From positions 5,456,001 through 5,520,000 of the forward strand of contig OX595985.1 of assembly GCA_951394045.1 (NCBI GenBank): a stretch of DNA of 64,000 nucleotides, in the 5' to 3' direction. Origin of the DNA: Nitzschia sp. DOCU1. Lineage: Eukaryota > Bacillariophyta > Bacillariophyceae > Bacillariales > Bacillariaceae. Positions within the stretch are counted from its first letter, which is position 1. Each line of letters opens with the position of its first letter. This document shows positions 5,810 to 50,112 of the stretch, in pieces. Position numbers and translations under genes: made by a program. The notes under the pieces were generated by a model. That model ran no database searches. It saw only the letters and a list, made by a program, of their open reading frames with translations, and was not told the origin of the DNA.

Positions 5810-5812
5810 CTG

Positions 5813-6315: not shown

Positions 6316-6433
6316 AATGTGTCCTATCAAGGAAAGGCAACTACCGGTATGATCTATGCCTACTACGGTAAGATCCAATAGCTAACAATCAGAATTAAGA
6401 GAGGTTGGAGCGACTCTTATCATACCTCTATTT

Positions 6434-7753: not shown

Positions 7754-7760
7754 CGCTTTT

Positions 7761-8602: not shown

Positions 8603-8605
8603 CTG

Positions 8606-8936
8606 AGGACGTCGCGGCGGCGTTTTATCACTAGAGCAGCGGCAGCATCCAAAGTAGTAGTAGTAGCTAGTGGTAGTAGTGCAGCAGCTAGTTGCCACCG
8701 TCCTGCTCTACTTATTAGGAGCGGACCTCGGCCTCTCACGCAGCTGTTTTGTCGTGTGCTGACTGCGGTCGGTAGGCTAGTAGGGTAAGTGTATTCATAC
8801 GTACTTACATTGAGTTGTCAACACCTGCGGGGGCGGGCGTCATTAAATTTCGCTAGAACATAGCTAAACTCAGCAACAGTTGCGGGTCCATAGCCCTACG
8901 ACTATCTGTGATAGCGAGTATGAATTAGCATGATTG
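8606..8936. other. Intergenic, nothing recognised
   Basis: Contains a CAG/TAG-rich low-complexity stretch near 8630-8690. No coding or RNA gene seen. Confidence 0.4.
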
Positions 8937-27586: not shown

Positions 27587-27825
27587 GACTCACGACTCAG
27601 TACTACTCGCAGAACGACTAGGATCCGGAAGAGAGCTAGTCTTGCGGAAGCGACAAGATCGTAAAGACTTCCGTCAAGACTCAGACTAGCTTCCGCACGA
27701 TCAAGAAATGCACGATCGAAAGATCGCAAGATTAGAAAATAGATGCTCAAACGAGCTCATAATACTAAGAACCAAACGTTCTAAAAGCAAGCCCATAACC
27801 TGTTTACGAACCGGTTATTTTAACA
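27512..27825 (+). repeat. 3' LTR of Copia 1
   Basis: Same 314 bp as the 5' LTR; followed by CTCCGC (27826-27831). Confidence 0.95.
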
Positions 27826-27831
27826 CTCCGC

Positions 27832-28599
27832 ATTTTTGGATCTCAAATGTTGCACTCTTCGAATCAGGGCTTGGACTGGGCAACGTTTGGGGTCAGTTGT
27901 TGTGGACGCCCAGATGTCCTCTCCCATTACTCCGTTCTTTTGGAGTTCGAAGTGAAGGTTGGCCTTTTCGGCGTGTGGGAGTTCGTCCAGAGGAATGGTG
28001 GTTGCAGGCTTCGTTCTTCCGCCTGGAGTTTTGAATGCGACGTCGCGGAGGCGAAATGGTCGTTGATCCTTGTGGGTCGTCCGAAGGTACTCGCTGGGCC
28101 GAAGCAGCCAGTGGATGCCGATCCACAGAAGGTCGGAGCCCACTTGGTGGTGCAGTCGCTGGGAGGCCCAGGCGGCGTCCGTGAGGTCGTCAAGGACGAC
28201 TCTTGGAACTGGCTTTTTTCGTCGCGATGGTGGGTCCAGTTTTTTCCAGGAGGCGAGTTGTTGGGTGATTCGGTGGTCGATGCGGCCCGCAGTGTTTTTC
28301 CTTGGGTCCGGGGACCCCAGTGTGGCCATCGTCTGTGCCACCTGACGTAGGGCATCTTCCGCTGTTCGAGCGCGGACCGGCTGCCCAGAGGGTGCAGCTC
28401 TACCGTCTCGGAAGCGGCGCATGAAGATTTGGAGAATTGGGACCGGGTCCTTTCTGTCGGCCAGCATGTGGTCGAGGCCGTGCCGGTCACAAAATTCGGT
28501 CCATTGTTCCCAGTGGGTCCGCTGCGCCTGGGAACGTCTAGTAGTGACGCCTCGTTGTACCTCTTCTGCAACAAGGCGGATATCAGCCTCGAGTTCCAT
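27832..28599 (-). pseudogene. Tyrosine recombinase, N-terminal and first catalytic part
   Basis: ATG at 28599. A SAM-like helical N-domain (RRSQAQRTHWEQWTEFCDRHGL) leads to the catalytic domain with the first Arg in GIHWLLRPSEYLRTT. In PAT/Ngaro/DIRS elements this enzyme joins the reverse-transcribed circle to the genome with no target duplication. The gene is cut here by Copia 1; the rest is at 20869-21138. Its start overlaps the end of the RT frame. Confidence 0.8.
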
Positions 28600-30473: not shown

Positions 30474-30620
30474 TAGTGTAGCCCGATCAACATACTCACC
30501 TAGTTCATTTACATAGCTACTAATGATAGCTGTGTTCGTGGAGTTAGCGCTTGTATGTTGATTGGGCGGTCTGCAAGCGGCGGTACCTACCAGCGTAGGT
30601 GCTACCGTTCGACCGCTCTC

Positions 30621-32779
30621 TCAAGCACTAGCTCCAGTAGTAGCTGTTCCTCTACTTTCCTCTCTCGCGGCGCGGGTAGCCAGGCCGGCTTCGATCCAGC
30701 CCTTGAGAGTGGCCTTGTCTGCAGCTGTGAGGGGGGTATGGCTTGCCGCACGTCCGCAGCCAGTGAAACACTGTCCCCTTACATGCCACGAGAGGCAAGC
30801 GACTTTGCCGTTGGACAATCGCGGTGGCTCCGCTTCGGCCGCGCCCGCCGGGGCGATGGCTCGGAGAAACTTCTTGATGGTTCCAAATGTGTCGCCGAGC
30901 GCCTTTACTTCCGGGTCGGTGGCCAAGTTCTTCGCCTCAGTCTGAGTATTAGGCGAAGGGTGAACCGAGATAACACTGTTGGCCGGCGAAGTGGCCACCG
31001 ATACGGGATTGGACCGCGTTCCCCCCGTGCGGCCCGAGGCCGGAGTTCCTGGGCCTGTGGCCAGGCCAGAACCGGCTGGACGGTAGGCAAGCGGCAACGT
31101 AGGAGGCGTCCATGCCAGGCGGCGTATGTTGCTCTGGAGGTCGAAGAACCTTGGGACATCGACGTGGCCTCTAGGGGTTGCAGCACAGCGCTCCCAGTAA
31201 TCTTGGAGTTCGCTGCGGATGGCGCAGAGGTACTTGACATAAATCAAGCCCTTACCGCCATGATCCCCATCCAGGTCTCCTAGACGATTTTCCACGCCTC
31301 TCCATCCCTCCACAATCTCGCGATTGAAGGTTTGGAAGATGGCGGAATTTCTCCCCGCCACCACCGCTAGTAGCACGGCGAAGGCTTCGAGTGTCTTGCG
31401 TGCGGCTCTTTCGCTAGTGGGAAAGAGGATGGTCTTGGCCCGCTGTAGTTCCCTTACGTCGCTGAGCTGGGCCGCGTTGGCGCCGCATTCAAGCAACATC
31501 TGTTGTTCTTCCAGCAAACGGCGTGCTTGGGTTCCACGTTCGTCACCCGCGAGGACGAGGAAGGGGTTGATACCACGCTCGGGCACGTAGTCCGTGGGGG
31601 CGCGAAACTCGAGGCGTTCCAGAGTGCCCCAAATCTCGGTGGTTGCCAACGGAGTCTCGTAGTGAAGTTCGTTGGCAGTGGTGTCGAAGAGTGCTTGGAG
31701 AACGGCTAGCTTCTCGCTTTTGCCGGCGTTCGCCATTGCCCCGTAGAGGCTCGGTAGTTGCTCCTCAGTCTCACAGCGGATCAAACGCAAGAGCGTCTCG
31801 TGGGTGAGCTTCCACTTGGAGCTGGGTTTCTTCGAACTGTCGCCTTCTTCGGCGCGTCCTTGAGGTTGCTGTGCGGCCATGATCTCGGCCCAGATACGCA
31901 TCATCTCGAGGCTGGTGTCATTTCCAGCGGCGGGGCCACGCTCTCCAGTACTGGGCGCGGGTGCGGCCGCGGGCTGATTCCATGCCGGAAGGTCCGACTT
32001 CACGACAACAACCAACCGATTCATGAGTTCAGCGTCCATGTTAACTGGCGAAGGTAGCGTGGAGCGTTCTACCCTGACTCGGCCGCCGGAAGTTCCAACG
32101 ACACGTAACCAGTTCTTGATGGGCTCGAAGTCTTCGCGCTGTGCTTCGCTCAAGGTCTGGAGATAAGCCTCGAGCTTGACAATCAGCTGTCCCACCTTGA
32201 CGTCGGAGCGGCAGAAGAGCGCCGCGACTTGGGGAGGCAGGTACATTCCGTGACGGACCCTCACCGTGTCGAAGACACCGGCAGGTGCGTCGTTGGGGAC
32301 ACTTTCCACCGGGTCATCTGCACCATCGTTGCTAGTGTAATGCAACACGTAGTTTGCCCACGGGTGGACCTTCACGTCACCGGGGAGAACATCGAAGATC
32401 TTGCTGGCAAGTACACGGCTTGGGGGGCTTGTGCTCCGACGACATCCATCTTGAACATGACGACCTTGTCATGCCATTCGCGTGCGTTTGGATTTCCAAG
32501 TGCTTGGGGGAAGACCATGGCGCGGTGATAGAAAACGACGGGAGCGGTGTCCTTCGAGACGGAGACGTACACGTGCGGCATCTCGTCCCAAGTTCGCTTG
32601 ACTTCATCGTACAAGGCGGCGCCGGACTTCCAAGTAGTCTCGTCCGCGGTAGCGAACAACTTGTACACTTCGGCTTGCTCCCCAAAACGAGCGTGACGCC
32701 AGTCGACGTTCTCGTAGAGGGAATGGTAAGTGGCGGGAGCCTCGGCTAACGAGGCAGCGGCTTCAGCAAAACGGACCAT
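30621..32779 (-). CDS. DIRS-like Gag (one frameshift)
   Basis: ATG at 32779, only 6 bp inside repeat A1, so A1 is the leader. The first ~130 codons (MVRFAEAAASLAEAPATY...) are in one frame. Near 32390 the sense continues in another frame (KIFDVLPGDVKVHPWANYVL) as a ~580-codon stretch. Its middle is helical; near the C-terminus a Cys/His cluster (CLSWHVRGQCFTGCGRAASH) could be a nucleic-acid-binding knuckle. The single-base shift is likely a lesion or an assembly error. Function inferred from position. Confidence 0.7.
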
Positions 32780-34186: not shown

Positions 34187-34194
34187 TCCTCGTT
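34187..34194. other. 8-bp target duplication of the long-TIR element (left)
   Basis: TCCTCGTT, repeated at 49999-50006. The base after it is G on both sides, so 9 bp is possible if the ends are read asymmetrically. Confidence 0.8.
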
Positions 34195-35625
34195 GCACCC
34201 CTAATATATCTGTCGCGTAAGAAAGGGTCATCTGTCATATAAGCTATTTAACATAATCTCTATGTCCTAAGACACCAAAAGACACACGAAACAAAAAAAA
34301 CACCGTCCGTGATTCAAACGAGTGCTGTTACCAAACCACCGTGACTCAAATACGACCCAACCAATGATTCCTTTTTCGCCCTCCTAGGGCCTCCCGTGCC
34401 TACCCAAATCACCTCCAAAGTTGTAATTTTCACTCTCGTCATGCACAGCCACAACCGCCATACTAGGTCACATCCTCAATTCCCATTCCATAAAAGGGGC
34501 ACCCATTTCCTCCTCCCCCTTTGCCTGCTCATCACAAACAGTAATTTCCTTGGTTTTATCATCATCCTCGTCCTCGTCATCCTGGTTTCCTTTATCCACT
34601 GCCATATATGGGGAACCATCTGGACCTTCACTTCCCAATAGGACATGAGCAATATTAATTCCCCTGAACTGGGCAGCATTGTACCAGATTCCTGTTGGGG
34701 CATGGAATACAATATCCTCAATGTTTTCTCGGGGACCATATGGACGTGCAATCGTGATTCGCACTTTGTGGTCCAGACCACACCCCCTAATCTTGCAGTT
34801 CTTTCCAAATCGGGGGATAGCCATGTTACAGTTAGTGTCAAAAGGAACTGTATTGGGAATTTTCCTGGCTTCTTCCAAAGGGGTGGTTGGGTAGTCGAAC
34901 CATTTGGATGCTGGACGGGCTTGGGAATCACACCTGAAGAATCTTCTTTCTTTAACATCTCTCCCAGATCTGCGAAGGATCCACTCATGGTCGTCACCAC
35001 TGATCTTAAAACCGGCTACAACAAAGAAACGGCATTTTGAGCCACATGCAACAATCAACAAATCCTCACATCAACCCCTGCTTCAACTTACATCGGTACA
35101 AATCTTCAAGTACCTGTTTGTTTTCTGCCAAACCTCTCTTAGTCAGTCTGAAGAAATCACTCGTTTCATCACTGGCTACCTCCATTGATCCTCTGGAAAT
35201 GAGCTGAGCAATGGTGGCTTCATGCCACAGTGGATAGAATTCCTTCATGGTGCTACTTTATTTTGCAGCAATCTAGCAATCTAAGCCAAATTCGCAAAAA
35301 CAATGAACGCAACTGAGTTGTCCTTTCTTTCATATGCATGCAACCCGCTACCCCAATGAAGCATTGGTTTGGAAATTTCCGTTCAAACTACATTGGCATT
35401 TCAAGAACAAAGTTCAAACAGTAAACTTCTCCATTCATGAAAACAAAGCCCACAATCAAATTCTCCCAAAATTTGGCGGTGGACCAAGTCATCATAGTAG
35501 TTCAAAGTTTGAACGTTCTCAACGTAAAGTCACTTAATACTCATCCCACTAACAGCCACACGTGCATCTCTTTTCAACAATACCAAATAGGCACTCCAAA
35601 TTGTTGTATACGGAATGTAATACGC
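34195..35625 (+). repeat. Left terminal inverted repeat of X
   Basis: Reverse complement of 48568-49998. I noticed one base difference (about 34543 against 49650), changing one residue of gene A. Near-identity means a recent origin or ongoing homogenisation of the arms. Confidence 0.92.
34468..35248 (-). CDS. Gene A, left-arm copy (two exons)
   Basis: Exon 1 35248-35092, intron 35091-35016 (76 nt, GTAAGT...TTGTAG), exon 2 35015-34468: 234 aa, intact. It begins MKEFYPLWHEATIAQLISRG; has a basic, aromatic middle (RRFFRCDSQARPASKWFDYP; FGKNCKIRGCGLDHKVRITI) that could bind nucleic acid; and an acidic stretch (DDEDEDDD) near the end. Family not recognised. It differs from the right-arm copy by one residue. 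Having a copy in each repeat means it is duplicated within every element. Confidence 0.8.
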
Positions 35626-35825
35626 NNNNNNNNNNNNNNNNNNNNNNNNNNNNNNNNNNNNNNNNNNNNNNNNNNNNNNNNNNNNNNNNNNNNNNNNNNN
35701 NNNNNNNNNNNNNNNNNNNNNNNNNNNNNNNNNNNNNNNNNNNNNNNNNNNNNNNNNNNNNNNNNNNNNNNNNNNNNNNNNNNNNNNNNNNNNNNNNNNN
35801 NNNNNNNNNNNNNNNNNNNNNNNNN
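35626..35825. other. Assembly gap (200 N)
   Basis: Hides the inner edge of the left repeat and the start of gene B. A run of exactly 200 N is probably a scaffold placeholder, so the missing length is unknown. Confidence 0.98.
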
Positions 35826-35826
35826 T

Positions 35827-37491
35827 GACAACGTTTTTGTGAAAGAAACGTTTCAGTTCCCAATCGCCCCCCTACTAAATTTCATTATCAGGAAAGGCAA
35901 AGGGGATCCAACTCGCTCTTCCGGCTGGCGTTTGGATCTGGGTAATGCAGGCAATGCTCATGATAGTGTGGATCCGACACGCCCCCGCTTGTTGGTAGGA
36001 GAGAGGGTGTTCATGGAAGATGTTGACGGTGAGCTTGCCCGTACATGCATTGGCAAGATTGTGGACCGGCTTTGCATTGCTGCTCGCCTTCTAACCATTG
36101 AAATGAATGAGCCCCACCTCATTAATCTGCAGCGGTACAAGGATTTTGCGGAACACTTAGGCAGATTCATTGGTGCTCCACATTGTTATGTGGAGCACAT
36201 AACAATACAGTTGCTTTGCCTGAGTGCCGGCGATAAAGGTTTTGAACACGTGGACGCCAGCAATGATCCCAGGAAGGGTTACAATTGGTGCTTTTGCAAG
36301 GTGATGAATTTTGTGGAGGAGGGGACCGGACAGCTTTTTTCCCTGAAGATTGTTTGCGCATTCAGAAAACGTCTTGGAGATTTCTACTCAGTCCGTTTTT
36401 CTGTGGTCGACAAGTTGTTGCGAAACATTAATGCACAGCTTGAAGGTATCAATGAAGGGTATTGCCGTCTCATCTCGCATCGAACTGGGGGTGACGAAGT
36501 TGGTGCAATACCAACATGGAACAATACTGATTGTCTATTTCTTGATGACAGTAGCCCTTGGGAATTGGTGGATGTGAATGGTCACCAGCAACGTTCCCTG
36601 AAGATACAGACAGGCATTCATCGAGGACTTTGGCTCTCACCTGCTCTCTCCAGTATATATGCAATGTCTGCTCAAGTGTCAGAGCGAGGGATGGTTCAGC
36701 TTGCCATGTTGGTGAGCTGGCAGAACTCTTTTCGAAAATTTTACCCTGTTATGCAGGAAGCGGGGCGGCGTCAAGTGTCTATGGATTATCCCCTTTATGA
36801 TGTCCAAAGTGTGGCTCGTGACCTGTTTTACAAGAAAAGAGTGGATGGGAAAAAGGATAAAGGACATGAATTGTTTGGGGGCAAAGACAGTCGCTTTAGT
36901 CCTGTTGGTTTTGACTTCATTGCCATGTTCGGAGATGCATCATCAAAGAAAGTTGAAATGGTGGACACAATTGTGGCTCGTTTACTACAGCTGCTAGATG
37001 ACATCAACCAGCTTGCTGAGCATGACAAGGTCAATATGGAGTCAGTATTGCACTGTACCAAATCGGCACAACAGGATCTCATGAGGATGGAACCATCCTG
37101 TGAACTGGGTTTGTTTCGTTTGAACTTATTCATTCAAGTATGTGCTCATTTACGAGTGAGACTAAAGCCGGGGAAGCACTTGCGACAGATGTTTTTTCCC
37201 GTTGAAAAATCGGGGTCATGGAACCATATCCTGGCATGTGGGGGAAGACCAGACCAAATCGAGGTCATCTGTGACACACTAATATACGAGTTGTCAACAG
37301 GGAAACAGCCCTTGTTCATGGATGAGATTGAAACCATACTGTGTGAGTCCCTTGATACTCGTCTGCTTCGCAAATTTGATGTCTTCATTCATGGCCAGTC
37401 CATATTCAAATTGGATGGTAATGGCATTTCATACTACAAAGAGTTCAATCAAAGAACATGGAAGCAGGTAGATGCACGTTTTAAACTATAA
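35827..37491 (+). CDS. Gene B of X, 5' end in gap; possible 2OG-Fe(II) oxygenase-like motif
   Basis: 554 codons open from the gap to a TAA. Residues ~120-185 include LSAGDKGFEHVDASNDPRKGYN; the H-x-D set in a strand-like context resembles the iron-binding motif of 2-oxoglutarate/Fe(II) dioxygenases, and later GDFYSVRF and LISHRTGG could hold the distal residues. The rest is helical and unfamiliar (SARDLFYKK-like basic patches, FRLNLFIQVCAHLRVRLKPGKH). TET/JBP dioxygenases are known to travel with some DNA transposons, so the idea is worth testing, but it rests on one short motif. It may equally be a novel transposase. It converges with gene C, ending 75 bp from it. Confidence 0.55.
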   Translation, partial: DNVFVKETFQFPIAPLLNFIIRKGKGDPTRSSGWRLDLGNAGNAHDSVDPTRPRLLVGERVFMEDVDGELARTCIGKIVDRLCIAARLLTIEMNEPHLINLQRYKDFAEHLGRFIGAPHCYVEHITIQLLCLSAGDKGFEHVDASNDPRKGYNWCFCKVMNFVEEGTGQLFSLKIVCAFRKRLGDFYSVRFSVVDKLLRNINAQLEGINEGYCRLISHRTGGDEVGAIPTWNNTDCLFLDDSSPWELVDVNGHQQRSLKIQTGIHRGLWLSPALSSIYAMSAQVSERGMVQLAMLVSWQNSFRKFYPVMQEAGRRQVSMDYPLYDVQSVARDLFYKKRVDGKKDKGHELFGGKDSRFSPVGFDFIAMFGDASSKKVEMVDTIVARLLQLLDDINQLAEHDKVNMESVLHCTKSAQQDLMRMEPSCELGLFRLNLFIQVCAHLRVRLKPGKHLRQMFFPVEKSGSWNHILACGGRPDQIEVICDTLIYELSTGKQPLFMDEIETILCESLDTRLLRKFDVFIHGQSIFKLDGNGISYYKEFNQRTWKQVDARFKL

Positions 37492-37565
37492 TGAATATTT
37501 ATGTATATTGGCTTGGCCTGTTGACCAACTGCCAGGCTTACCGACTGTCTAGCTTGGCCTGTTGT

Positions 37566-39361
37566 TCAGCCAACGGCTGGCCGGCTGCCATGGATACTGT
37601 CGACGGGCCCATGGTTCTTATAGTATGCATGGCAACATGCTGTTGTACTATAGAAGGAATGGCAGCTACAGTGCCACACTTCACTTGTAGTTTCCCTCAG
37701 TTTACCAAACTGAACAAGAACCAATGATGTACCAGCCAGGAACAAGTCCTTTCTGCTCGAATGGTCCCCATCCCAGTTTGCACTTACAGCAAGGTGCCAC
37801 TTTGCAATGCGGGTAGCATCGATTGCAACACCAATGAAATCAATATCATTTGCCAGAAATGATTCCAACTCCAACCCTTGCATCCGATGGAAATCATTGT
37901 TGGTCAACCGGGATACTTCCTTCATCAGGCGTTTGTCCAAGCCCACCAACATAGGGGTCTCCAATGGGTGGAGTTCCCAAAATGATCATGTGGTGCTCGC
38001 AACAAGCACGTGCCGTTGTGTCAAGAATACAGGGGTTGATCATCGGGGTGGTTCCACCTTTACTCAAGATGTTACTTGCATATAGACGTAAGCGATCTTG
38101 AGATGTGAGTAAACTCAAATCAAATTGAGATGGGACTCTGTAGCCTTGAGGTAGTTTCAAGCCAAATTGGTGTCGAAAGGTTTCCAATTGTGGAAGGAAT
38201 TTGAGTTCAATATTATTGCCAGCTGTGAATTTAGACTCCATACTTCTCCTTTTGTGACGCCAATATTCCTGGATTTGCTTGGTAACAATATCCAAACATC
38301 CGTCAGGGAATAAGTTTGTAGTGTCATCTCCCAACTTCTGCATCAGCAGATTAACCATCTCGTCAGGATTTGGTACACGAAAAGATGTAGATCCCAATAG
38401 TGTATTGGAATAAACATTCATAGAATTGACGGCCTCTTTCAAGATTGGATTCAAGCCATGTTTACCACGTTCTGGTTTCAGCAAATGTTCCTTCCACGTC
38501 ACCACTAGCCCACAAGAGTGTCGCTTGATACGTTGTATGCCAACAGGTCCAACATACTCTGCAGTCTCATTTGCATTCATGGCAGTATCTTCATTAACAA
38601 CAGATTTAGTCTCTTCTACCTCTTCCCATTCATCATCAGTGTCGTAGATGGAAGCAGGTATTGGATAAAAGAGTCGACACCGGAATTAGCATTCTGCCTT
38701 CCTATATTTGCATTGAAAGTGAATGGCTCGATAACCATTTGTGCTATAGTGTGAGGGTAATACCTTTGACCGAATAGCATTTGGACCAAGCCCTGGTGTA
38801 TGGCACAAGGCCTGAGCAATGCTTCCATATTCCTCCACGGGCGCATTGTCATACAATGACTTTCTCATACGTTTGCCTGCATATTGAGGTTTTTCTCCAC
38901 CAAAGACTAGTCCAACTAGTCCACCCATGGCATGAGGATTGGTAGTAACTGAAATGGGATTTTGCTTTGCCGTAGGTGAGTCATTAAGTTTCTGTGGAGG
39001 TGGGGGGGGGGGGTGGAGGAAACAGAGATTTTTTGGCGGATGGTGATTCACTGAGGTACTGCTTTGTCACCTGAAAAAGAGCAGGTTGGCGGTCTATTAT
39101 AGATTTGCTACCAACATGGCTCAACTGAGAGGCCGCCAGATGGAACAGGTGAGTTCGTGGTGTTGGAACAGTGCCCGTTTGTTCATGATGGTTGATGGAG
39201 TCTTCAACAAAGGTTTGGATGGTTACAGTCTTGAGTGCCTCTCGTGTCGGTGTTGCATAGACTTCTGCCTGATCAAAGATGGTCAGTGACTGATGGAGTC
39301 TTTCTCGCGTAGGAGTGTTGGAGCACCCTTTGGCCTTTTTGCTTGGATTAGAGGCCTTCAT
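37566..39361 (-). pseudogene. Gene C of X, frame-broken
   Basis: ATG at 39361. Coding sense runs through three frames: MKASNPSKKAKGCSNTPTRE... to a poly-Pro run, which is out of frame at a G-tract (39002-39012); then KLNDSPTAKQNPIS... with one TAA at about 38685; then DTDDEWEEVEETKSVV... to CCEHHMII, where an extra T shifts it into WELHPLETPMLVGLDKRLMK and DFIGVAIDATRIAKWHLAVS. Introns might explain part of this; homopolymer errors could explain the rest. No family recognised. GVAIDATR could be the first Asp of a DDE-like core, but the other acidic residues are not evident. Confidence 0.5.
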
Positions 39362-39910
39362 CGTCAATAGGTGAAGAATGCAAAATGGCACTGGTCTAGG
39401 AAATTTGTTCAATAAATTTGGCGGGACAATAAATTTGGCGGGAACCGGATTGGATGACGGTAGCATGTTTCCAAAACCAATGGTCACAATTTGTATCAAC
39501 CCAAAAATTTGGTGCGTATTACATTCCGTATACAACAATTTGGAGTGCCTATTTGGTATTGTTGAAAAGAGATGCACGTGTGGCTGTTAGTGGGATGAGT
39601 ATTAAGTGACTTTACGTTGAGAACGTTCAAACTTTGAACTACTATGATGACTTGGTCCACCGCCAAATTTTGGGAGAATTTGATTGTGGGCTTTGTTTTC
39701 ATGAATGGAGAAGTTTACTGTTTGAACTTTGTTCTTGAAATGCCAATGTAGTTTGAACGGAAATTTCCAAACCAATGCTTCATTGGGGTAGCGGGTTGCA
39801 TGCATATGAAAGAAAGGACAACTCAGTTGCGTTCATTGTTTTTGCGAATTTGGCTTAGATTGCTAGATTGCTGCAAAATAAAGTAGCACCATGAAGGAAT
39901 TCTATCCACT
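38950..39910. repeat. Left copy of the 961-bp duplication flanking LINE 1
   Basis: Same as 48002-48964 except for the length of one G-tract. It holds the N-terminal part of gene C, the C/A intergenic region, and the first 20 nt of gene A (39891-39910). Confidence 0.95.
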
Positions 39911-40044
39911 ATAGTTTTTCGTTTGGAAATTCGGGATCGCCGCGTCGAACCCTGATCTCCGGAAGAAATCCAGTACAAAACCTACGTAGAATCTACGTAG
40001 AAAAGGTGCAAACAGCGAAAAAAGCTTGGAAAACCGTAGCGACA

Positions 40045-41967
40045 ATGGCGGCTTATGTTGACATGCACCGTGTAACCGGTCGTAACGCCGAGGAAGTCTG
40101 CAGGACTGAAGATGATGATGACGACAAGACAGTACGTTCCAGCGGAAGCGGGAACAAAAACAATAAAGAACTGATGGACGACGACAATATGTCCTATAGG
40201 CTGAAAATGTCATGGAAAGGCAGCGGTGCGAGCGAGATGAATCTGGCCGCCACCCACTTTGCTAAAGTCCTAGTTCACATCAAGGCAGTTGAACCAGGAA
40301 CCCTCTTGATCAGGAAACAAGAAGAAGTGAGCAATTTTGAGAAAATGGTAACGTCAGCGGCACTAGCGAGGGAAAACATGGATATAAAACAGGAATCCAT
40401 GAAAATAAGGGATGTGCGCTCTACTCTCTACGTGACTATCGTAACAATCCGCTGCAAGTCTCGCATTCCATCCTTGAAGCGGTACTACAAGTTGAAGGAG
40501 TTCATCGATGCGCAAAACATTTACCTAAGCGAGCATCTGTTCAGCAAAGAAAACGTGGAAGAAAGACAGATTGGCTTCATTGCCAACGTGCATGTGGAAC
40601 ACGTTCCAGCAAAGTACCTCGCATCAGTATGGCGCCAGGAGCTTATGCCGTTCATTCCTAGCGGCACAGTACTGCCAGAGTTTATCTTCAAGAAAGGGAA
40701 AGTGGCCATGACGGCAGACAGCAAAACTCGGAACCAATGGGAAAACTTTACTAGAGCTTATGTCATCAGGTGCGACGCTGCTGATCGAAAAATCTTGCAC
40801 CAGATCCTTACTAAGGCGAGCACTTCCAAATCTTGGAAAACACAACATGGCGCATATATCCCTTTCCACTGGAGAAACAAGGAATCGGCTGCATTCGACA
40901 GGATGGTCAAAACGACCAATAAGTGTCTCCGTAACCTCTATGTGGTGAAAATAGCCGGAGTGAACCAGGAAGTAATGTCAAAACTGGCAGAAACAAGACT
41001 GATGAAATTGGACAGAGTGTACGATATCCTACCTACCGGTCTACTTGACGACGAGGGTGAGTGGAAATTACTTATCAATGTAGAACCGAAAAGGGGAAGC
41101 AAGGCCAACCAAGGCGACATCCACAAGCAGGTCCATGACACAGTGGCACATGAAATTTCCGGGTGGCCGGACCATATGAAGCAAATGAGATTCGCACCAT
41201 GCGTAGTTTCCAAACGTGGAAAAATGGATTCGGATTCTGTGAGTGAAGGAACCACAACGGCAGACAGCGTTAGCATTATTACTGAAGCCATGGACTCAGT
41301 GTGGGGTGGCAACGACGACGACGAAATCAACGACTTCAACCAGCCGGATGATGAACTGGGTACAATAGCGAGTGCACCGAAAGCGCCTAGAGCTTCCTAC
41401 GTTGACGCAGCAGCATCTAGCGCAAGAAATTCCAGGAATTCAACAGGCCCGCCATCGAGCATAACCACTCCATCAGGCCCCGATTTCTCCAATATTATGC
41501 GTAAGCTGGAGGAGTTGACGACTTCAATGCTGGAAATTAAAGAAGAAAACCTAGCAATCAAAGCAGAAAATCGCAATCTTCTAGAGCGCCTCGAAGCAAA
41601 CGAGAAACAAGCAGCACAAAGCCTAAAAGCGCCACCACCAAATTTCACGACCCCTTCACGCCAAGAGACCAAACGAAAGTGCAAGCAAACAACTCCAGAT
41701 TTGACAGTGGGTCGGTCATTAGGATCGGAACTGGAGGAAGAGGCAGCTTGTGAGGAGACAAACATAAGCATGCAGGTAGACTACGAAAATGAACAAAACC
41801 GAGACTTTCGCGGAGACAACCAAGCAATAAGGCAGCAGCCAATGGCATTCCGAGGAGACGAAGTTTATGAACCCACAAGCCAGATGCGTCAGCGCTCCAC
41901 CTCAAGAGGTGGTGGGAGTAACGGAGCCGGCCGAGGCACATTCGGACAAAACCAAACTGGAAGATGA
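40045..41967 (+). CDS. LINE 1 ORF1 protein
   Basis: 640 aa from ATG at 40045. N-terminal two thirds form a folded region with repeated basic segments (VTIRCKSRIPSLKRYYKLKEF; AAFDRMVKTTNKCLRNLYVV). After an acidic linker, residues ~490-535 form a leucine-heptad coiled coil (MRKLEELTTSMLEIKEENLAIKAE) fit for trimer or dimer formation. The tail is Arg/Gly/Gln-rich. This matches the general LINE ORF1 role of RNA-binding chaperone, but no RRM or CCHC knuckle is visible. The counterpart in LINE 2 has the same plan. Confidence 0.85.
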   Translation: MAAYVDMHRVTGRNAEEVCRTEDDDDDKTVRSSGSGNKNNKELMDDDNMSYRLKMSWKGSGASEMNLAATHFAKVLVHIKAVEPGTLLIRKQEEVSNFEKMVTSAALARENMDIKQESMKIRDVRSTLYVTIVTIRCKSRIPSLKRYYKLKEFIDAQNIYLSEHLFSKENVEERQIGFIANVHVEHVPAKYLASVWRQELMPFIPSGTVLPEFIFKKGKVAMTADSKTRNQWENFTRAYVIRCDAADRKILHQILTKASTSKSWKTQHGAYIPFHWRNKESAAFDRMVKTTNKCLRNLYVVKIAGVNQEVMSKLAETRLMKLDRVYDILPTGLLDDEGEWKLLINVEPKRGSKANQGDIHKQVHDTVAHEISGWPDHMKQMRFAPCVVSKRGKMDSDSVSEGTTTADSVSIITEAMDSVWGGNDDDEINDFNQPDDELGTIASAPKAPRASYVDAAASSARNSRNSTGPPSSITTPSGPDFSNIMRKLEELTTSMLEIKEENLAIKAENRNLLERLEANEKQAAQSLKAPPPNFTTPSRQETKRKCKQTTPDLTVGRSLGSELEEEAACEETNISMQVDYENEQNRDFRGDNQAIRQQPMAFRGDEVYEPTSQMRQRSTSRGGGSNGAGRGTFGQNQTGR

Positions 41968-44900
41968 TAGTAATCACAGAAGAACACGATACTAGCAGCG
42001 ATGGTGATGATTCTGTCGTAACAAACATCAATTTTCAAGATTGGCTAGAAGATTATGGCTCCGACAATGACGAGCGCCAGTGGACGAATAATGAAGCATA
42101 CGGGGACGAACTGGTGCACAAACTGGAAGGGCACACTAGATTCTACTTCTGCAATATCCATGGAACAAAAGAATCTGCAAAATGGGAGCATGTGTGCGAG
42201 TCAATGCAAAGCCTAGACGTAGACATTTCGGGATTTTCAGAAATGAACGTGGACACATCGCAAGAAAAAGTTCGACATCGCTTGGAAAAATCAACCAGGA
42301 AAATGATCTTCTCCGAGACAGTCCTCGTAACAGCATCCACTCCAGATCCATCAGCCGACGAGAAAAAGCCAGGGGGCACCTCGTTGTTAACAATTGGGGG
42401 GGGCATGTGCTCAAGAATAAATAGCATCTTTAAGGATCCCATGGGCAGGTGGTCGGCGGTACGATACGCATGCGACGACAGCAACAAAGGCATTTGGGCA
42501 GTTTCGGTATATCAAGTCTGCACTGGCACAATCGACCCGACTTCATTCACAGCAGCTCGACAACAAGAAGCATTGATAAACGACCCGTCAATTAAACCTC
42601 GACATGCCTTCAAGCGAGATATAAAAGAGTTCATTCGAAAATTCCCTGGCGACGAATTCCTCATCGGTGGGGACTTCAACGAAGAGATAACTTCTGCGGA
42701 AATGACAGAACTGATGGACGAGCTACATCTATTCGACCTCATGGCTTCCAGGCACGGAAGCAATTCCATACCGAACACGTACATTCGTGGCACAAAAAGA
42801 ATCGACTTTATACTGGGCACCGAGGTCGTATTGGACGGTATTGTCAATTGCGGGTACGACCCGTTCGGATTCCGATTCCGGACCGACCACCGTGGAATGT
42901 GGATTGATGTTGATACCATTCGGCTATTCGGTAACAACACAACGAAGATGGCAGCGAGAATAACCCGAGGTTTCAATGCAAGAGAGCCCAAAGACGTTTT
43001 AAATTGGACGGTAGAGACAGCAAAATATTTAAATAGCCATAATATGCTATCCCGACTCCAAACACTCCAAGGGATGGAATTACCGGATCACGAATTCGCA
43101 GAACGCTTCGACCGAGATTTAACAAGAGGCTGCCTACTGGGCGAAAAGAAAGCAGCCAAGCTCCGACCGAGGAGCCCGTGGAGCCCAGAATTTGCCGAAG
43201 CTTGGGCACAAGTATTCTTCTATAGCCAGGCCTGGAGCTTTCGCCGCAACAAAGTTAAGATGGCGAATGCACTACGATCAATCAAGGCGCGGTATAAACT
43301 CTCAGATGAAATTCCACGAGTCCAAGACATCAACCGCAAACGGAAGCAAGCCCAGAGGGCCCTTAAGAAGATAAGACTTCGAGCCAGAGAGATACGAAGA
43401 GAATTCTTACGCTTGAAAGCAGAAGCATACGCCGTGGCAGAAAACGCTGAAGCCGAGAAGATCCTCAAGAGAATGCAGCAGGCTGAAAATATGTCGCAGG
43501 TTTTCCAAAAAATCGACAGGTCAAAAGCAGCATCAGCCGGAAGCGTGGACAAACTGGAAATACCCCGAATAGCAGGAACACCGCCGAAACAATGCAGGGA
43601 CTGGAAAATAATTACTCGGCCTACGGAGATCGAGGATGCACTACTTGCACGTAATCAAGAGCACTTCGGCCAGGCCGAAGGCACGCCATGCACGAGCGCA
43701 GTCATGAAAGATCATTTGGGATATAAGGGCGATGGTGACGCAGCAGAACTCATCCTCCAAGGCGATCTGGAGCACCTGGATGACCTTGACCTTGACGACA
43801 TGACGAAACTATTCCTACAACATCTCAAGCGCATGGTAGATGAAGACACCATTGACTCCATTATCACCAAAAAGCAGTTCGTCTCGAAGATTAAGCACTG
43901 GCCTGAGAAAACGTCAACAAGCCCATCTGGACTCCATCTCGGCATGTACCATGCTCTTACCAAACCTTGTGGCCTCGAACCTCATGATAACCAGCCTTGT
44001 TCCGAAGTATTCACTGCATTCTCCCAAGACAGAGATTTGTTGATTGATTGCCGTCTTGCTATCATCAATTACGCCCTTCGATTCGGATACTCGTTCAATC
44101 GCTGGAAAGACGTGGAGAACGTCATGATTCGGAAAGATGCGGATAATTGTCGTATACATCGCCTGCGCGTCATCCATTTATATGAAGCGGACTACAATCT
44201 TATCCTGGGGGTCAAATGGCGAGAAGCATTGCACAACGCGGAAGACAAGGGACTTTTGAACGAGGGTACATATGGAAGCAGGTCTGGTCGGTCCGCCCAT
44301 GACCCTGTCCTCATGGAAATATTTCAGAACGAAATATACAGATTGTCAGCAAAAAGCGGAGTGGCCTTCGACCTTGACGCGGCAGCTTGTTATGATAGGA
44401 TTTTGGCAGCATTGGCACGCTTAGCAAGCCAAAAATACGGAGTGCCATCTCGGGTGGCACTGGTGAACGCAATCACACTGGAAGAAGCACGGTTCAAATT
44501 GAAGACAAAACTGGGTCCATCGTCTCGTTTCTATAAACATGTGGAAGAGAATCCCATTCACGGCACGGGACAAGGCTCGCAAAACTCGCCGACCATTTGG
44601 TTGTTCGTGTGCTCAACCCTTTTTGACGCCTTTGAGGAAGATGCCCATGGCGCAGTATTCGAAAGCTACGATAAATCAGAGTCCATTACCATTCATATGG
44701 TAGGCTTCGTGGACGACTGCTCACAAAGGGTTAATGACTTTCGCTCCCATCCTCAACCGTCACCCGAGATACTCATCAACAAAATGCAAGAAGACGCACA
44801 GAGATGGAATGACCTATTGTGGTCGTCAGGGGGACTGCTGGAAGCATCGAAATGCTCCTATCATTTGATAATTTCCTCACCGGATAGCAAAGGCATTCCA

Positions 44901-47756
44901 ATGCTTTCTCCTAGCAGAAGCGACCACCCACTCCTGATTAATTCACCGACCCAAGCAGAGCCGATCCGAATCAAGAGCCTCTCAGCCTTTGAAGCCCATC
45001 GCACCTTAGGCGTCTGGACCTCACCCAGCGGCAGCATGAAAACTCAATTGGCAAAAAGCCGCGAAAACAGCAAACGCCACATGATGCGCATTGGTTTCTG
45101 CACCTCAGCAAGAGAAGCCCGTACTTACTACCATAGTTTTTACCAAACCAGCGTGGGATACACGAATTGCTGCACGTCATTTACCGAGAAAGAAGCACAT
45201 TTGGTGGAAAAAGGATTCACGGCTAAGGCTTTAAACAAATGCGGATACAACAAAAATACAGCCGGGGCCGTTGTGTGGGCGCTAGCTAAACGAGGGGGCA
45301 TAGGATTTATGGGAGGATCGACGGAACAAGGAGTAGCCAAAACTCTGACAGCTCTAAAGTTACTACGAAGCCACGGACAACCAGCAAGGGAGTTTCGGAT
45401 TATGTTAAGCTGGTTACAAGCCCAAGCCGGGTTCAACTCCTCCTTATTAGGAAAAGACACCTCAACCCGACTACCACATCTCCGAGCGACGTGGTTACCC
45501 AACCTCCGACATTTCCTCAATAAAACCGGACTAAAAATCAACCATGCCGACCACTTCTCTCCGCCAGCCCAACGAGAACACGATGTATTTCTCATGGAGT
45601 GGGTCCTCACAAATCAACCAGATCGCTTTAAAGATGATGAAATCCGGATGATTGCAACGTGCCGGGAATTCCTTCAAGTCACAACTCTAGCTGACATTGC
45701 GACAGTGGATGGACGGACAATTGATTCCAAATACTGGCATGGCCCTGCTGAGCCGCCACCAGCCCATGAGCGACGATTGCACATGTTCAATCTCTTGCAA
45801 CGCCCCCCAACACGCGCGTGGAATCTGTGGAAGAAGGCATTGTCCCCACTCGTCAACAACCCCACTCATCGGCTTCTCCATACTCCTTTGGGCCGTTGGC
45901 TTTGCAGTTCAGCGACGACACGCGTCGTCTGGAAATATGCCTATTCGCCGGGCGAAAACCTTTTGTTTGCACGAAGTCATATTGACGGAAAGTACTCCAA
46001 ACACCAATCCATTTCCTATCGCCGATTTGACATCACCGGCACTCCAAGCGATCTCCCAGCAGACAGCGTCCCTGCATCAATTACCGTGATTGCGTTCCCT
46101 CTCTCCCTGATACGCCTTGACATCTGGTGTCCGATGATGGTCCCTGACGACACTATCCTCCCCCCACACGCTGGATTGTTGACTATGATTGGATCTCTGC
46201 CACCTTGGGAAAACACTCTGCTCGCCGGAATTGAAACCACGCATTCCCTACCAGCCCTCCGTGAGTGGTACACCAACAACCGAGGAATCAGTGGCTCTGA
46301 CGGCTCGGTACAAATCGCTACAGCCAGCTTCGGCTGGAAATTGTGCAGCCTCGACGGCACCATGGTGGCCCAATGCAACGGACCGGCACCCGGTCTTAAG
46401 CCAAGCAGTTTTCGGGCAGAGGCTTATGGGCATCTATCCTTTGTCAGATTTCTTCTCTTGTTGGAACGCGACGAAACTCTAGAGCAACCCAAGTCGCAGA
46501 CAATCCACATTGACAGCAAGAGCCTCCTCCAACGCTTGGAGTACCATGGGAAGTACAGCTACGAGATCGCCAATGACACCTTGAAGCCAGATTGGGATGT
46601 CACGAGCACACTCCACCATTCCTCGAAAGGGTTACGATGCACGCTCCGTGCAAAGTGGATTGCGAGCCACCAAGACGATGACCTGCCCTACGATGAACTG
46701 CCCCTGCCAGCAAGAATTAACAGCGATGCAGACACATTGGCCGACAACTATATCCTTGCCAATCCCGACCCAGTCCCATTTGTCCTTCACATGCCCACGT
46801 CGGGAGCAACCCTGGAAACATCTTACGGTACAATCACCAGCAATTATAAAACGGAAATCCGCGATGCCGCAACATGGCCCCAACTGCAGACATACCTATG
46901 TCATCGATTCCAATGGGGAAATGAGGTACTGGGACGAATCGATTGGACAGCGATGGGGACAGCAATTTCGGCTAATAGGGCACATCAAGCTACCGTGGTG
47001 AAACATCTGATTCGGCAGGCCCCAACCGGACACATCGCACACCGAAACGACAAAAGGAAAGACCCGTCCTGCTTCCTTTGCGGTGATGACCGTGAAGACA
47101 ACAACCATATCATCCGCTGTCCAAGCGACAGCGTATCCACCTGGCGATCCGATTACCTGGCTGATATTCACAAGAGCCTCAACCGACCACAGCTCCACAG
47201 TGACCCGAGACTTTTAGACATACTGCGGGATGGCATGCAACGATGGCTTTATTCCGAAGGATCCCCGCTCCCAGTGCAACAATACCCGGAAAAATATCAT
47301 CCTCTCATCGAGGAGCAAAACTCAATTGGCTGGGACCAGCCCCTCCGTGGCCGCATTTCCCTCTACTGGAGCAGCCTTCAGCAGGACCACATGACAGCTA
47401 ACAATATCACTGAAAAGGGAGCCTCGGGGCAAGTCTGGTCAAGACAGCTGGCAAAACATGGCCTCACTTGGTGGCTCAAGGCCTGGAAATCCCGCAACAA
47501 TGACCGTTTTGGCAGCACTCCAGAAACCAAACAGATGAGACAACGCACCCAACTTGGCAGGGAACTCACTATGCTCTACGCACAGAAAGCAGCAATGCGT
47601 GACATCGACACTTACATTTTCATGGAATCCGTAGAGGCCCACATGGCAACAACACCAACCGACAATCTCCCTCTTCAGAACTGGATCAATCTGAATGAGC
47701 CCGCTATCCAGCGTAGTATCGGGGCTCGCAATGCACCGCCAGCACTCCCCATTTGA
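41964..47756 (+). CDS. LINE 1 ORF2: APE endonuclease, RT, RNase H, CCHC
   Basis: 1,930 aa. Its ATG overlaps the ORF1 stop as ATGA, suggesting stop-restart translation. Domains: APE-like endonuclease with FCNIHG (~64), FSEMN (~93), LIGGDFNE (~235), KRIDFIL and RTDHRG (~308); reverse transcriptase with FDLDAAACYDRIL (~801), HGTGQGSQNSP and GFVDDCSQ (~914); RNase H with SGSDGSVQ (~1442), FRAEAYG, HIDSKSL and NSDADTLAD, so all four acidic residues are present; C-terminal CFLCGDDREDNNHIIRC (~1702), a CCHC zinc site. The mix of APE and RNase H places it in the I/Tad/R1-like part of the LINE tree. No stops; potentially active. Confidence 0.93.
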   Translation: MIVITEEHDTSSDGDDSVVTNINFQDWLEDYGSDNDERQWTNNEAYGDELVHKLEGHTRFYFCNIHGTKESAKWEHVCESMQSLDVDISGFSEMNVDTSQEKVRHRLEKSTRKMIFSETVLVTASTPDPSADEKKPGGTSLLTIGGGMCSRINSIFKDPMGRWSAVRYACDDSNKGIWAVSVYQVCTGTIDPTSFTAARQQEALINDPSIKPRHAFKRDIKEFIRKFPGDEFLIGGDFNEEITSAEMTELMDELHLFDLMASRHGSNSIPNTYIRGTKRIDFILGTEVVLDGIVNCGYDPFGFRFRTDHRGMWIDVDTIRLFGNNTTKMAARITRGFNAREPKDVLNWTVETAKYLNSHNMLSRLQTLQGMELPDHEFAERFDRDLTRGCLLGEKKAAKLRPRSPWSPEFAEAWAQVFFYSQAWSFRRNKVKMANALRSIKARYKLSDEIPRVQDINRKRKQAQRALKKIRLRAREIRREFLRLKAEAYAVAENAEAEKILKRMQQAENMSQVFQKIDRSKAASAGSVDKLEIPRIAGTPPKQCRDWKIITRPTEIEDALLARNQEHFGQAEGTPCTSAVMKDHLGYKGDGDAAELILQGDLEHLDDLDLDDMTKLFLQHLKRMVDEDTIDSIITKKQFVSKIKHWPEKTSTSPSGLHLGMYHALTKPCGLEPHDNQPCSEVFTAFSQDRDLLIDCRLAIINYALRFGYSFNRWKDVENVMIRKDADNCRIHRLRVIHLYEADYNLILGVKWREALHNAEDKGLLNEGTYGSRSGRSAHDPVLMEIFQNEIYRLSAKSGVAFDLDAAACYDRILAALARLASQKYGVPSRVALVNAITLEEARFKLKTKLGPSSRFYKHVEENPIHGTGQGSQNSPTIWLFVCSTLFDAFEEDAHGAVFESYDKSESITIHMVGFVDDCSQRVNDFRSHPQPSPEILINKMQEDAQRWNDLLWSSGGLLEASKCSYHLIISSPDSKGIPMLSPSRSDHPLLINSPTQAEPIRIKSLSAFEAHRTLGVWTSPSGSMKTQLAKSRENSKRHMMRIGFCTSAREARTYYHSFYQTSVGYTNCCTSFTEKEAHLVEKGFTAKALNKCGYNKNTAGAVVWALAKRGGIGFMGGSTEQGVAKTLTALKLLRSHGQPAREFRIMLSWLQAQAGFNSSLLGKDTSTRLPHLRATWLPNLRHFLNKTGLKINHADHFSPPAQREHDVFLMEWVLTNQPDRFKDDEIRMIATCREFLQVTTLADIATVDGRTIDSKYWHGPAEPPPAHERRLHMFNLLQRPPTRAWNLWKKALSPLVNNPTHRLLHTPLGRWLCSSATTRVVWKYAYSPGENLLFARSHIDGKYSKHQSISYRRFDITGTPSDLPADSVPASITVIAFPLSLIRLDIWCPMMVPDDTILPPHAGLLTMIGSLPPWENTLLAGIETTHSLPALREWYTNNRGISGSDGSVQIATASFGWKLCSLDGTMVAQCNGPAPGLKPSSFRAEAYGHLSFVRFLLLLERDETLEQPKSQTIHIDSKSLLQRLEYHGKYSYEIANDTLKPDWDVTSTLHHSSKGLRCTLRAKWIASHQDDDLPYDELPLPARINSDADTLADNYILANPDPVPFVLHMPTSGATLETSYGTITSNYKTEIRDAATWPQLQTYLCHRFQWGNEVLGRIDWTAMGTAISANRAHQATVVKHLIRQAPTGHIAHRNDKRKDPSCFLCGDDREDNNHIIRCPSDSVSTWRSDYLADIHKSLNRPQLHSDPRLLDILRDGMQRWLYSEGSPLPVQQYPEKYHPLIEEQNSIGWDQPLRGRISLYWSSLQQDHMTANNITEKGASGQVWSRQLAKHGLTWWLKAWKSRNNDRFGSTPETKQMRQRTQLGRELTMLYAQKAAMRDIDTYIFMESVEAHMATTPTDNLPLQNWINLNEPAIQRSIGARNAPPALPI

Positions 47757-47862
47757 CCACTCATCATGGCAACGAAAACAAATACAAAAGAACAGAAAAA
47801 GACAGAAAAAGGAACACTCCACCCAAACAGACAGAAACACCAGAAAACAACCCAACAACAAG

Positions 47863-47895
<33 letters not shown>

Positions 47896-48001
47896 TGGGT
47901 GTAAGATAGTTACAATCCTCGCGGAAGTCCGCCGGGAACGCGGGTCGACTGCCTCATAGCAGAGCGGCAGCGTTTAATAAATAAGACCTCTTAACCCCCC
48001 A

Positions 48002-48964
48002 TGAAATGGGATTTTGCTTTGCCGTAGGTGAGTCATTAAGTTTCTGTGGAGGTGGGGGGGGGGGGGGTGGAGGAAACAGAGATTTTTTGGCGGATGGTGA
48101 TTCACTGAGGTACTGCTTTGTCACCTGAAAAAGAGCAGGTTGGCGGTCTATTATAGATTTGCTACCAACATGGCTCAACTGAGAGGCCGCCAGATGGAAC
48201 AGGTGAGTTCGTGGTGTTGGAACAGTGCCCGTTTGTTCATGATGGTTGATGGAGTCTTCAACAAAGGTTTGGATGGTTACAGTCTTGAGTGCCTCTCGTG
48301 TCGGTGTTGCATAGACTTCTGCCTGATCAAAGATGGTCAGTGACTGATGGAGTCTTTCTCGCGTAGGAGTGTTGGAGCACCCTTTGGCCTTTTTGCTTGG
48401 ATTAGAGGCCTTCATCGTCAATAGGTGAAGAATGCAAAATGGCACTGGTCTAGGAAATTTGTTCAATAAATTTGGCGGGACAATAAATTTGGCGGGAACC
48501 GGATTGGATGACGGTAGCATGTTTCCAAAACCAATGGTCACAATTTGTATCAACCCAAAAATTTGGTGCGTATTACATTCCGTATACAACAATTTGGAGT
48601 GCCTATTTGGTATTGTTGAAAAGAGATGCACGTGTGGCTGTTAGTGGGATGAGTATTAAGTGACTTTACGTTGAGAACGTTCAAACTTTGAACTACTATG
48701 ATGACTTGGTCCACCGCCAAATTTTGGGAGAATTTGATTGTGGGCTTTGTTTTCATGAATGGAGAAGTTTACTGTTTGAACTTTGTTCTTGAAATGCCAA
48801 TGTAGTTTGAACGGAAATTTCCAAACCAATGCTTCATTGGGGTAGCGGGTTGCATGCATATGAAAGAAAGGACAACTCAGTTGCGTTCATTGTTTTTGCG
48901 AATTTGGCTTAGATTGCTAGATTGCTGCAAAATAAAGTAGCACCATGAAGGAATTCTATCCACT
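48002..48964. repeat. Right copy of the 961-bp duplication flanking LINE 1
   Basis: Copy of 38950-39910, 2 bp longer in the G-tract. It resupplies the whole gene A promoter and start next to the intact exon. Confidence 0.95.
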
Positions 48965-49998
48965 GTGGCATGAAGCCACCATTGCTCAGCTCATTTCCAG
49001 AGGATCAATGGAGGTAGCCAGTGATGAAACGAGTGATTTCTTCAGACTGACTAAGAGAGGTTTGGCAGAAAACAAACAGGTACTTGAAGATTTGTACCGA
49101 TGTAAGTTGAAGCAGGGGTTGATGTGAGGATTTGTTGATTGTTGCATGTGGCTCAAAATGCCGTTTCTTTGTTGTAGCCGGTTTTAAGATCAGTGGTGAC
49201 GACCATGAGTGGATCCTTCGCAGATCTGGGAGAGATGTTAAAGAAAGAAGATTCTTCAGGTGTGATTCCCAAGCCCGTCCAGCATCCAAATGGTTCGACT
49301 ACCCAACCACCCCTTTGGAAGAAGCCAGGAAAATTCCCAATACAGTTCCTTTTGACACTAACTGTAACATGGCTATCCCCCGATTTGGAAAGAACTGCAA
49401 GATTAGGGGGTGTGGTCTGGACCACAAAGTGCGAATCACGATTGCACGTCCATATGGTCCCCGAGAAAACATTGAGGATATTGTATTCCATGCCCCAACA
49501 GGAATCTGGTACAATGCTGCCCAGTTCAGGGGAATTAATATTGCTCATGTCCTATTGGGAAGTGAAGGTCCAGATGGTTCCCCATATATGGCAGTGGATA
49601 AAGGAAACCAGGATGACGAGGACGAGGATGATGATAAAACCAAGGAAATTACTGTTTTTGATGAGCAGGCAAAGGGGGAGGAGGAAATGGGTGCCCCTTT
49701 TATGGAATGGGAATTGAGGATGTGACCTAGTATGGCGGTTGTGGCTGTGCATGACGAGAGTGAAAATTACAACTTTGGAGGTGATTTGGGTAGGCACGGG
49801 AGGCCCTAGGAGGGCGAAAAAGGAATCATTGGTTGGGTCGTATTTGAGTCACGGTGGTTTGGTAACAGCACTCGTTTGAATCACGGACGGTGTTTTTTTT
49901 GTTTCGTGTGTCTTTTGGTGTCTTAGGACATAGAGATTATGTTAAATAGCTTATATGACAGATGACCCTTTCTTACGCGACAGATATATTAGGGGTGC
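48568..49998 (-). repeat. Right terminal inverted repeat of X
   Basis: Inverse of 34195-35625; ends TATTAGGGGTGC directly before TCCTCGTT. Confidence 0.92.
48945..49725 (+). CDS. Gene A, right-arm copy (two exons)
   Basis: Exon 1 48945-49101, intron 49102-49177 (76 nt), exon 2 49178-49725; 234 aa, intact. Differs from the left copy by one residue (Phe for Cys in the ITV-x-DEQAKG segment). LINE 1 entered this gene 20 nt after the ATG, but the long target duplication rebuilt a whole promoter, ATG and exon on this side. Family unknown; see the left copy for what can be seen in the protein. Confidence 0.8.
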
Positions 49999-50112
49999 TC
50001 CTCGTTGTCATGCGCGCATGCGCGCGTCGTCCGACCACTCGGAGCGAAAGACTAACTTGACTAACACACTACTGACGTCACACGCGGACCGTCCGTCCGT
50101 CGCTCGTCTACC
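49999..50112 (-). repeat. Proximal 3' UTR/LTR of Copia 2, cut by X
   Basis: 114 bp after the pol stop of Copia 2 (on its sense strand), beginning on the X side with the TCCTCGTT duplication. Contains GTTAGTCAAGTTAGTC, also seen as TTTAGTCAAGTTAGTCC at 232-248 in the gypsy 3' region. Confidence 0.5.

Follow-up and report, generated by a model that had tools for sequence, protein, structure and literature searches.

A probable rearranged Mutator-like transposon with two gene-bearing arms in the diatom Nitzschia sp. DOCU1

A two-armed insertion

The stretch of DNA analysed here, referred to as the window, comprises 64,000 nucleotides of contig OX595985.1 (C1) of the diatom Nitzschia sp. DOCU1 (C1:5456001-5520000). 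Within it lies an element bounded by long inverted arms, each carrying a copy of a spliced gene, gene A, with two different genes, B and C, converging in its middle. The element is probably a rearranged, non-autonomous member of a transposon family of the Mutator-like element (MULE) type; the genome searched for its relatives comprises 52 Mb in 63 contigs. Its principal parts are listed here in window coordinates.

34187-34194: left target-site duplication (TCCTCGTT), present as a single copy in empty sites
34195-35625: left inverted arm, at least 1431 bp, reaching the assembly gap (from the arm comparison)
34468-35248, minus strand: gene A, left copy; exon 1 35092-35248, intron 35016-35091, exon 2 34468-35015 (mirrored from the right copy)
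35626-35825: assembly gap of 200 N, true length probably larger
35827-37491, plus strand: gene B, 3' part, 554 amino acids visible; the family is otherwise convergent with Plavaka-type open reading frames (ORFs)
37566-39361, minus strand: gene C remnant, apparently of a MULE-type transposase without its D-D-E core (identity from sister copies)
48568-49998: right inverted arm (from the arm comparison)
48945-49725, plus strand: gene A, right copy; exon 1 48945-49101, intron 49102-49177, exon 2 49178-49725
49999-50006: right target-site duplication (TCCTCGTT), from the sequence match

The arms agree over 1431 bp with one mismatch (C/A at 34535), a minimum length because the left arm abuts the gap. 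Both ends of the element start with GCACCCCTAATATATC, and each borders a copy of TCCTCGTT; an eight-base match at a fixed place is expected by chance about once in 65,000. When the two flanks of the element were fused over one TCCTCGTT and searched against the genome, 31 rows were returned. In 25 of these the match spans at least positions 3-269 of 300, unbroken at the junction, at 88-100% identity; two others are the window's own flanks, and four are shorter or 71-76% alike. Base-by-base alignment of four of the 25 empty sites revealed exactly one TCCTCGTT in three and a one-base deletion inside it in the fourth. Both outer ends of the element therefore belong to a real insertion, and an origin of the arms purely as an artefact is rejected in view of the empty sites. 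Much of what an earlier note had read from this DNA is upheld: a mobile element with near-identical, gene-bearing inverted arms, a short duplication at both borders, an intact, outward-pointing two-exon gene A of 234 amino acids with the same model in each arm, and genes B (plus strand) and C (minus strand) convergent in the middle.

The insertion target looks like the long terminal repeat (LTR) of a Copia retrotransposon. Several of the empty-site matches are paired at a spacing of 7.5-7.8 kb, and a Copia-like reverse-transcriptase ORF at 50113-51393 matches RVT_2 (E 8.8e-7, slightly under the curated cut-off); it is on these two observations that the target is read as an LTR. Just outside the window, C1:5521699-5521965 is identical to the target sequence at 266 of 267 positions and is probably the partner LTR. 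If so, the Copia element would be young and the insertion into it younger, an order that carries no date.

Gene C and the related copies

A genome search with the arm returned 17 rows: three from the window, ten from other loci (97% to 67% identity) and four short, terminus-only rows at three places. The element, which the earlier note had described from a single copy, is therefore one of several. A pattern of the window-type terminus, allowing up to three mismatches, was found at five places, two of them the window's ends, and the reversed control pattern at none. Gene C adjoins gene A at nine of the ten other arm loci; the exception, a truncated end, lies on the small contig C22. At that locus (L009), near position 6469, an arm 97% identical to that of the window breaks off within gene A, beside several TTAGGG-like units.

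It is in these sister copies that gene C can be read. Intact gene C is a single ORF of 897 amino acids in L010 and 925 in L013. The transposases of MULEs carry a D-D-E triad with a CxxH motif between the second D and the E. In all four gene C relatives compared (P0005, L013, P0006 and P0007), the residues D512, D589, C610xxH613 and E715 are invariant, as is a C-terminal zinc motif, C864xC866 x8 C875xH877 (CxCx8CxH). Profile scans were run on full-length relatives rather than on the N-terminal piece in the window; Pfam MULE (PF10551) matches all four, the best with E 0.0014 over profile positions 4-98 of 99, and NCBIfam IS256 gives E 0.13-0.21 in two proteins. Gene C of L010 found three matches in a large protein set, among the best 7995 candidates, and no match among the sequences of solved structures; no relative of gene C or gene B was confirmed among viral contigs. 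Intact gene C looks like a MULE-type (Mutator) transposase.

In the window, the core of gene C is deleted, with a junction near 37940-37980. The remnant covers residues 14-124, 131 to about 475 and about 767-896 of 897, in differing frames, with one in-frame stop and, in the left one of two 5' copies, a frame shift at a run of G. As the stretch with D, D and E is missing, gene C appears motif-less there. The earlier note had found no motif of a known transposase in A, B or C and could assign the element to no superfamily. Neither statement holds for the family: the intact sister gene C has the MULE-type core and zinc motif and reads as a MULE, and of the eleven other copies for which the second end could be placed, nine are flanked by exact duplications of 9 or 10 bp.

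Counting the window, 12 copies or small derivatives have a located second end, and ten of the 12 show an exact duplication of 8-10 bp. It measures 8 bp in the window, 9 bp in L010, L012, L014, L016, L019, L021 and a small element beside L017, and was scored as 10 bp in L017 and L020. In six sister copies (L010, L011, L012, L014, L016 and L017), the second end is a different sequence without gene A, either GCAAGGAA (ACAAGGAA in L016) or GCATGATT, and all ten fetched loci show one arm only within the 9.9 kb fetched. Sister terminal inverted repeats (TIRs) are short or imperfect; in L010 an inner match of 36 bp is 89% identical, and the ends share GCA. The family plan is thus a left end with outward gene A, gene C reading inward, a second gene convergent with gene C, and a different right end. 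By comparison, the window copy has the gene A arm at both ends, gene C without its core, gene B as the convergent gene and an 8-bp target duplication. Since all six complete sister second ends are without gene A, the window copy carries a doubled gene-bearing arm. An outward, duplicated gene A, which the earlier note took for the plan of the element, is accordingly true of this copy and not of the family.

Gene A itself has 234 amino acids. An intron with a GTAAGT donor is present in both window arms and in seven of the nine sister loci scanned; it was not found in the other two, L015 and L016. In a Nei-Gojobori script, non-synonymous (dN) and synonymous (dS) divergence of the window gene were 0.158 and 0.66 against L010, and 0.336 and 1.184 against L013. 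Judged from sequence, gene A is under constraint. Exon 2 has no Pfam match, and the comparison of gene A with a large protein set returned three proteins, all exon-2 pieces without Pfam domains.

The small derivatives L019, L020 and L021 retain 36-42 bp of the window terminus at 93-98% identity and have exact duplications. Short repeated motifs were also counted by subfamily, though they were picked after inspection and their enrichment is consequently weak: ATCTGTC occurs five times, against 0.8 in shuffles, in the window element minus its nested insert, and five times in 283 bp of L019; CCAACCTG occurs three times in L012 against 0.2 in shuffles; CTGAGC, at five in L010 against 4.0 expected, is not enriched. 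A 273-bp element with family ends adjoins the full copy in L017 (9083-9355, reversed) and has its own exact duplication, ATCGCGACT. In L021 (545-7029; C4:2424944 on), an exact 9-bp duplication, CGGCGTCGA, surrounds an element of 6.5 kb. The element has about 283 bp of small-derivative sequence on either side, both pieces pointing the same way, and between them lies a separate MULE gene of 799 amino acids that is Pfam-positive; the whole looks like two small elements moved as one unit.

The convergent gene and nested elements

The slot convergent with gene C has different occupants. In L010 it holds a gene of 774 amino acids, which is 98% identical in L017, with one stop; L011, L016 and L018 carry a 24-26% relative, L013 carries other ORFs, and the window carries gene B. 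Weak similarity links the L013 gene to its counterparts in L011, L018 and L010 (E 3e-11, 3e-9 and 2e-6, respectively). The best BLASTP match between gene B and the L010 gene has E 0.38, and hhalign found no match between the gene B family and the L010/L011/L018 family; given these two negatives, homology of all occupants of the slot is not claimed.

One copy, L017, is a mosaic. Over 425-4681 it matches L013 at 96% identity, over 4682-8751 it matches L010, also at 96%, and over 8957-9064 it returns to L013 at 99%; its left half is only 65-67% alike to that of L010. Gene C of L017 stops at 4649, placing the joint about 33 bp past the stop. The exact duplication around L017 indicates that the mosaic moved as a unit. 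Its ends and transposase stay together while the middle changes, a hint that ends and transposase must match. In these alignments, the gene convergent with the transposase is exchangeable between subfamilies.

The start of gene B is hidden by the gap, and the visible part matches the 829-amino-acid P0001 only from about residue 274. Since the gap must conceal no less than the absent 5' region of gene B, it is probably longer than 200 bp in reality. In the genome, at least 29 rows match gene B and at least 40 match P0001. By eye, and among the matches listed, a B-like ORF lies directly beside, and convergent with, a Plavaka-type ORF at 11 places (in kb, C1:3170, C1:5763, C3:3957, C5:2443, C8:1818, C9:18, C9:174, C9:727, C11:1843, C11:1968 and C11:2254). 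The Plavaka profile matches over its cut-off at eight of ten places, all eight within these 11; at the other three, similarity to the second half of the Plavaka gene of L039 is 27-29%, the weakest being C9:727 (E 3.5e-8). The bond is not strict. Two sub-threshold Plavaka places and several distant Plavaka-like ORFs are without an adjacent B, and besides fragments, B-like ORFs at seven places (1286-1311 amino acids, or broken) are without an adjacent Plavaka match. The window is the only place, among the matches listed, with B beside a MULE-type gene C. The distance from the B stop to the C stop is 74 bp there, and that from B to the Plavaka ORF is 63 bp in L039. Neither the profile nor the sequence comparison found a Plavaka match at the window element, the sequence within the gap being hidden. 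Among the open-licence papers listed, no report of Plavaka or gene B in algae was found.

The function of gene B was approached through eight members of its family. None has a Pfam match, bar one sub-threshold match in one member, and none matches the TET/JBP profile with E up to 5. A stretch HxDxxNDxR is present in seven of the eight; we take it to recall the motif of iron-dependent dioxygenases, and on this short motif a dioxygenase activity is only suggestive. A fold predicted from five sequences had a mean predicted local distance difference test score (pLDDT) of 48, and Foldseek returned nothing below E 0.001 (best E 0.68). Among the sequences of solved structures, gene B found no match as a single sequence, and its profile matches were at chance level (best E 0.12); phage records gave no match.

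B-like ORFs of about 1292 amino acids occur in L038 (4010-7888) and L044. Their copies are long and 99% identical, contain tandem units of about 181 bp and have no adjacent Plavaka or MULE match; they may represent a further type of B-bearing mobile element. About 20 kb at C9:165000-184300 contains fragments of gene C, of the L010-type convergent gene, of B and of Plavaka-type ORFs, and may be a site where the two transposon types met.

About 9 kb of the middle of the window element consists of a nested insertion of about 8 kb and a second copy of a 961-bp stretch, both missed in the first reading. The insertion resembles a long interspersed nuclear element (LINE), and the corresponding features are these.

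38950-39910: 961-bp direct repeat, left; 5' portion of gene C, plus inner arm sequence
39911-48001, plus strand: nested LINE-like element with two ORFs (39895-41967 and 41922-47756) and an A-run at about 47862-47891
48002-48964: 961-bp direct repeat, right, two G longer; other 5' copy of gene C

The LINE-like element matches RVT_1 with E 4.8e-6, under the curated cut-off. It is bordered by the 961-bp direct repeat, not by a short target duplication; either the duplication was exceptionally long, or the assembly joined two haplotypes here. Within Copia-like ORFs, at about 51.4-59.4 kb, the ends of a related LINE show no more than a short repeat, CCATGTAAGGC. Elsewhere in the window, long overlapping ORFs at 27820-32468 resemble, by eye, a reverse transcriptase and a tyrosine recombinase, and perhaps belong to a DIRS-type element.

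Origin of the window copy and known systems

As a rearranged MULE, the window element would have been moved in trans, by cut and paste, by the transposase of a sister copy. Its arm may owe its doubling to template switching while a gap was repaired, or to recombination between two copies. Gene B would have entered through an exchange where the convergent genes meet tail to tail, which is also the joint of the recombinant L017, and the LINE-like element would have entered gene C later. Genes A and B may, as a guess, encode proteins that help the element to insert, bind its ends or evade silencing, roles reported for accessory ORFs of other MULEs.

Several results weigh against this account. The match of gene C to Pfam MULE, of the kind that the earlier note had named as refuting its reading, has a best score of 19.4 bits, under the curated cut-off of 27.6, and is not clear by profile alone; that of L013 has only E 0.087. 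Pfam SWIM, a type of zinc finger found in many MULE groups, matches a separate MULE of this genome and none of the gene C relatives, and hhalign of the gene C alignment against a Pfam-positive MULE of the same genome gave nothing. The structure model of gene C (three sequences), a prediction that the earlier note had proposed, failed with a mean pLDDT of 33. The target duplication is 8 bp in the window and mostly 9 bp in the relatives; that of L011 has two mismatches in nine, L013 has no duplication, and a second end was not found for L009, L015 or L018. Movement in trans is only putative, as gene C may have decayed after insertion. Gene C is regarded as representing a MULE lineage too divergent for curated profiles.

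The profile scores, all sub-threshold, and the negative hhalign result, like the asymmetric sister ends and the two extra genes, are also what would be expected of a separate, undescribed D-D-E superfamily that resembles MULEs in general features only. This is improbable, since MULE is the only transposase family matched, in four of four relatives and over nearly the whole profile, and since the catalytic residues, CxxH and the C-terminal zinc motif occur in the MULE order alongside 9-bp duplications; on these grounds a new superfamily was set aside. The two gene-bearing arms could, in turn, represent the ancestral state of the family, with one arm lost from the sisters, as the direction of change is unreadable from a single copy. 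Sisters of two subfamilies (L010; L011, L012, L014, L016 and L017) all lack the second arm, however, and the almost identical window arms fit a recent doubling or later conversion, so that ancestry of this kind seems very improbable. That the assembly set one arm sequence twice beside the gap is suggested by the start of the gap exactly at the left arm's stop, by the near identity of the arms and by the lack of two arms in any sister copy. Such an error is most improbable: the same TCCTCGTT lies at both arms, the joined flanks are continuous in 25 other places, and the arms differ at 34535. These three observations secure the terminal part of the left arm, the inner part being less secure.

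Gene B might be the remnant of a Plavaka-type element nested in the MULE, rather than a gene exchanged into it, given that B otherwise adjoins Plavaka-type ORFs and that the gap conceals its 5' side. The B-C stop spacing is close to the B-Plavaka spacing of L039, however, with no Plavaka ORF between, and L017 demonstrates that the half past gene C is replaceable at this joint; nesting is thus somewhat unlikely. Alternatively, and only tentatively, gene B may be an exchangeable accessory cassette that crossed between Plavaka and MULE, two unrelated DNA transposon superfamilies, by recombination at its tail-to-tail joint with the transposase gene, and encodes an undescribed protein aiding insertion or escape from silencing. 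Terminal sequences would then follow the transposase, the partner gene would not, and gene B would correspond in algae to VANC and to the TET/JBP genes borne by transposons.

A rearranged MULE can be compared with several known systems. One source gives MULE target duplications of about 8-11 bp, typically 9, and TIRs of 14-500 bp in the text, with one table row at 640 (PMC6446971). The D-D-E transposase, C-terminal zinc motif and duplications of 8-11 bp described there for MULE/Mutator resemble those of the present family, and the accessory gene of maize MuDR is paralleled here, accessory ORFs being known in several MULEs (PMC6446971). The diatom group listed there (MULE-Diatoms, group 37) has one ORF and TIRs of 123-124 bp (PMC6446971), whereas in the window each arm contains a gene and measures no less than 1431 bp, and the sisters have unequal ends and three genes. 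According to PMC5735166, Arabidopsis VANDAL/Hiun is likewise a MULE with a transposase and two more genes (VANA, VANB and VANC), of which VANC counteracts silencing and binds to short motifs of its family. A relation of gene A or B to VANB or VANC is hypothetical, and motif enrichment here is weak and was sought post hoc. Fungal TET/JBP transposons share one accessory gene family across several DNA transposon superfamilies including Plavaka, although the excerpt does not name MULEs as one of these lineages (PMC12730594), and for gene B, with its single sub-threshold exception, no Pfam match rises above chance. Certain plant MULEs bear multiple long TIRs and are also rearranged, with extra terminal sequence, yet mobile (PMC3310237); their extra TIRs are mostly tandem, whereas here the gene-bearing arm replaces the other end.

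A candidate new superfamily is thereby removed from the list; it looked new because the diagnostic core of its transposase had been deleted. The window element would instead be a natural transposon built with two left arms, in a family whose convergent gene is swapped between subfamilies and, as gene B, is common to another superfamily. The spread and role of transposon accessory genes thus become testable in one small genome.

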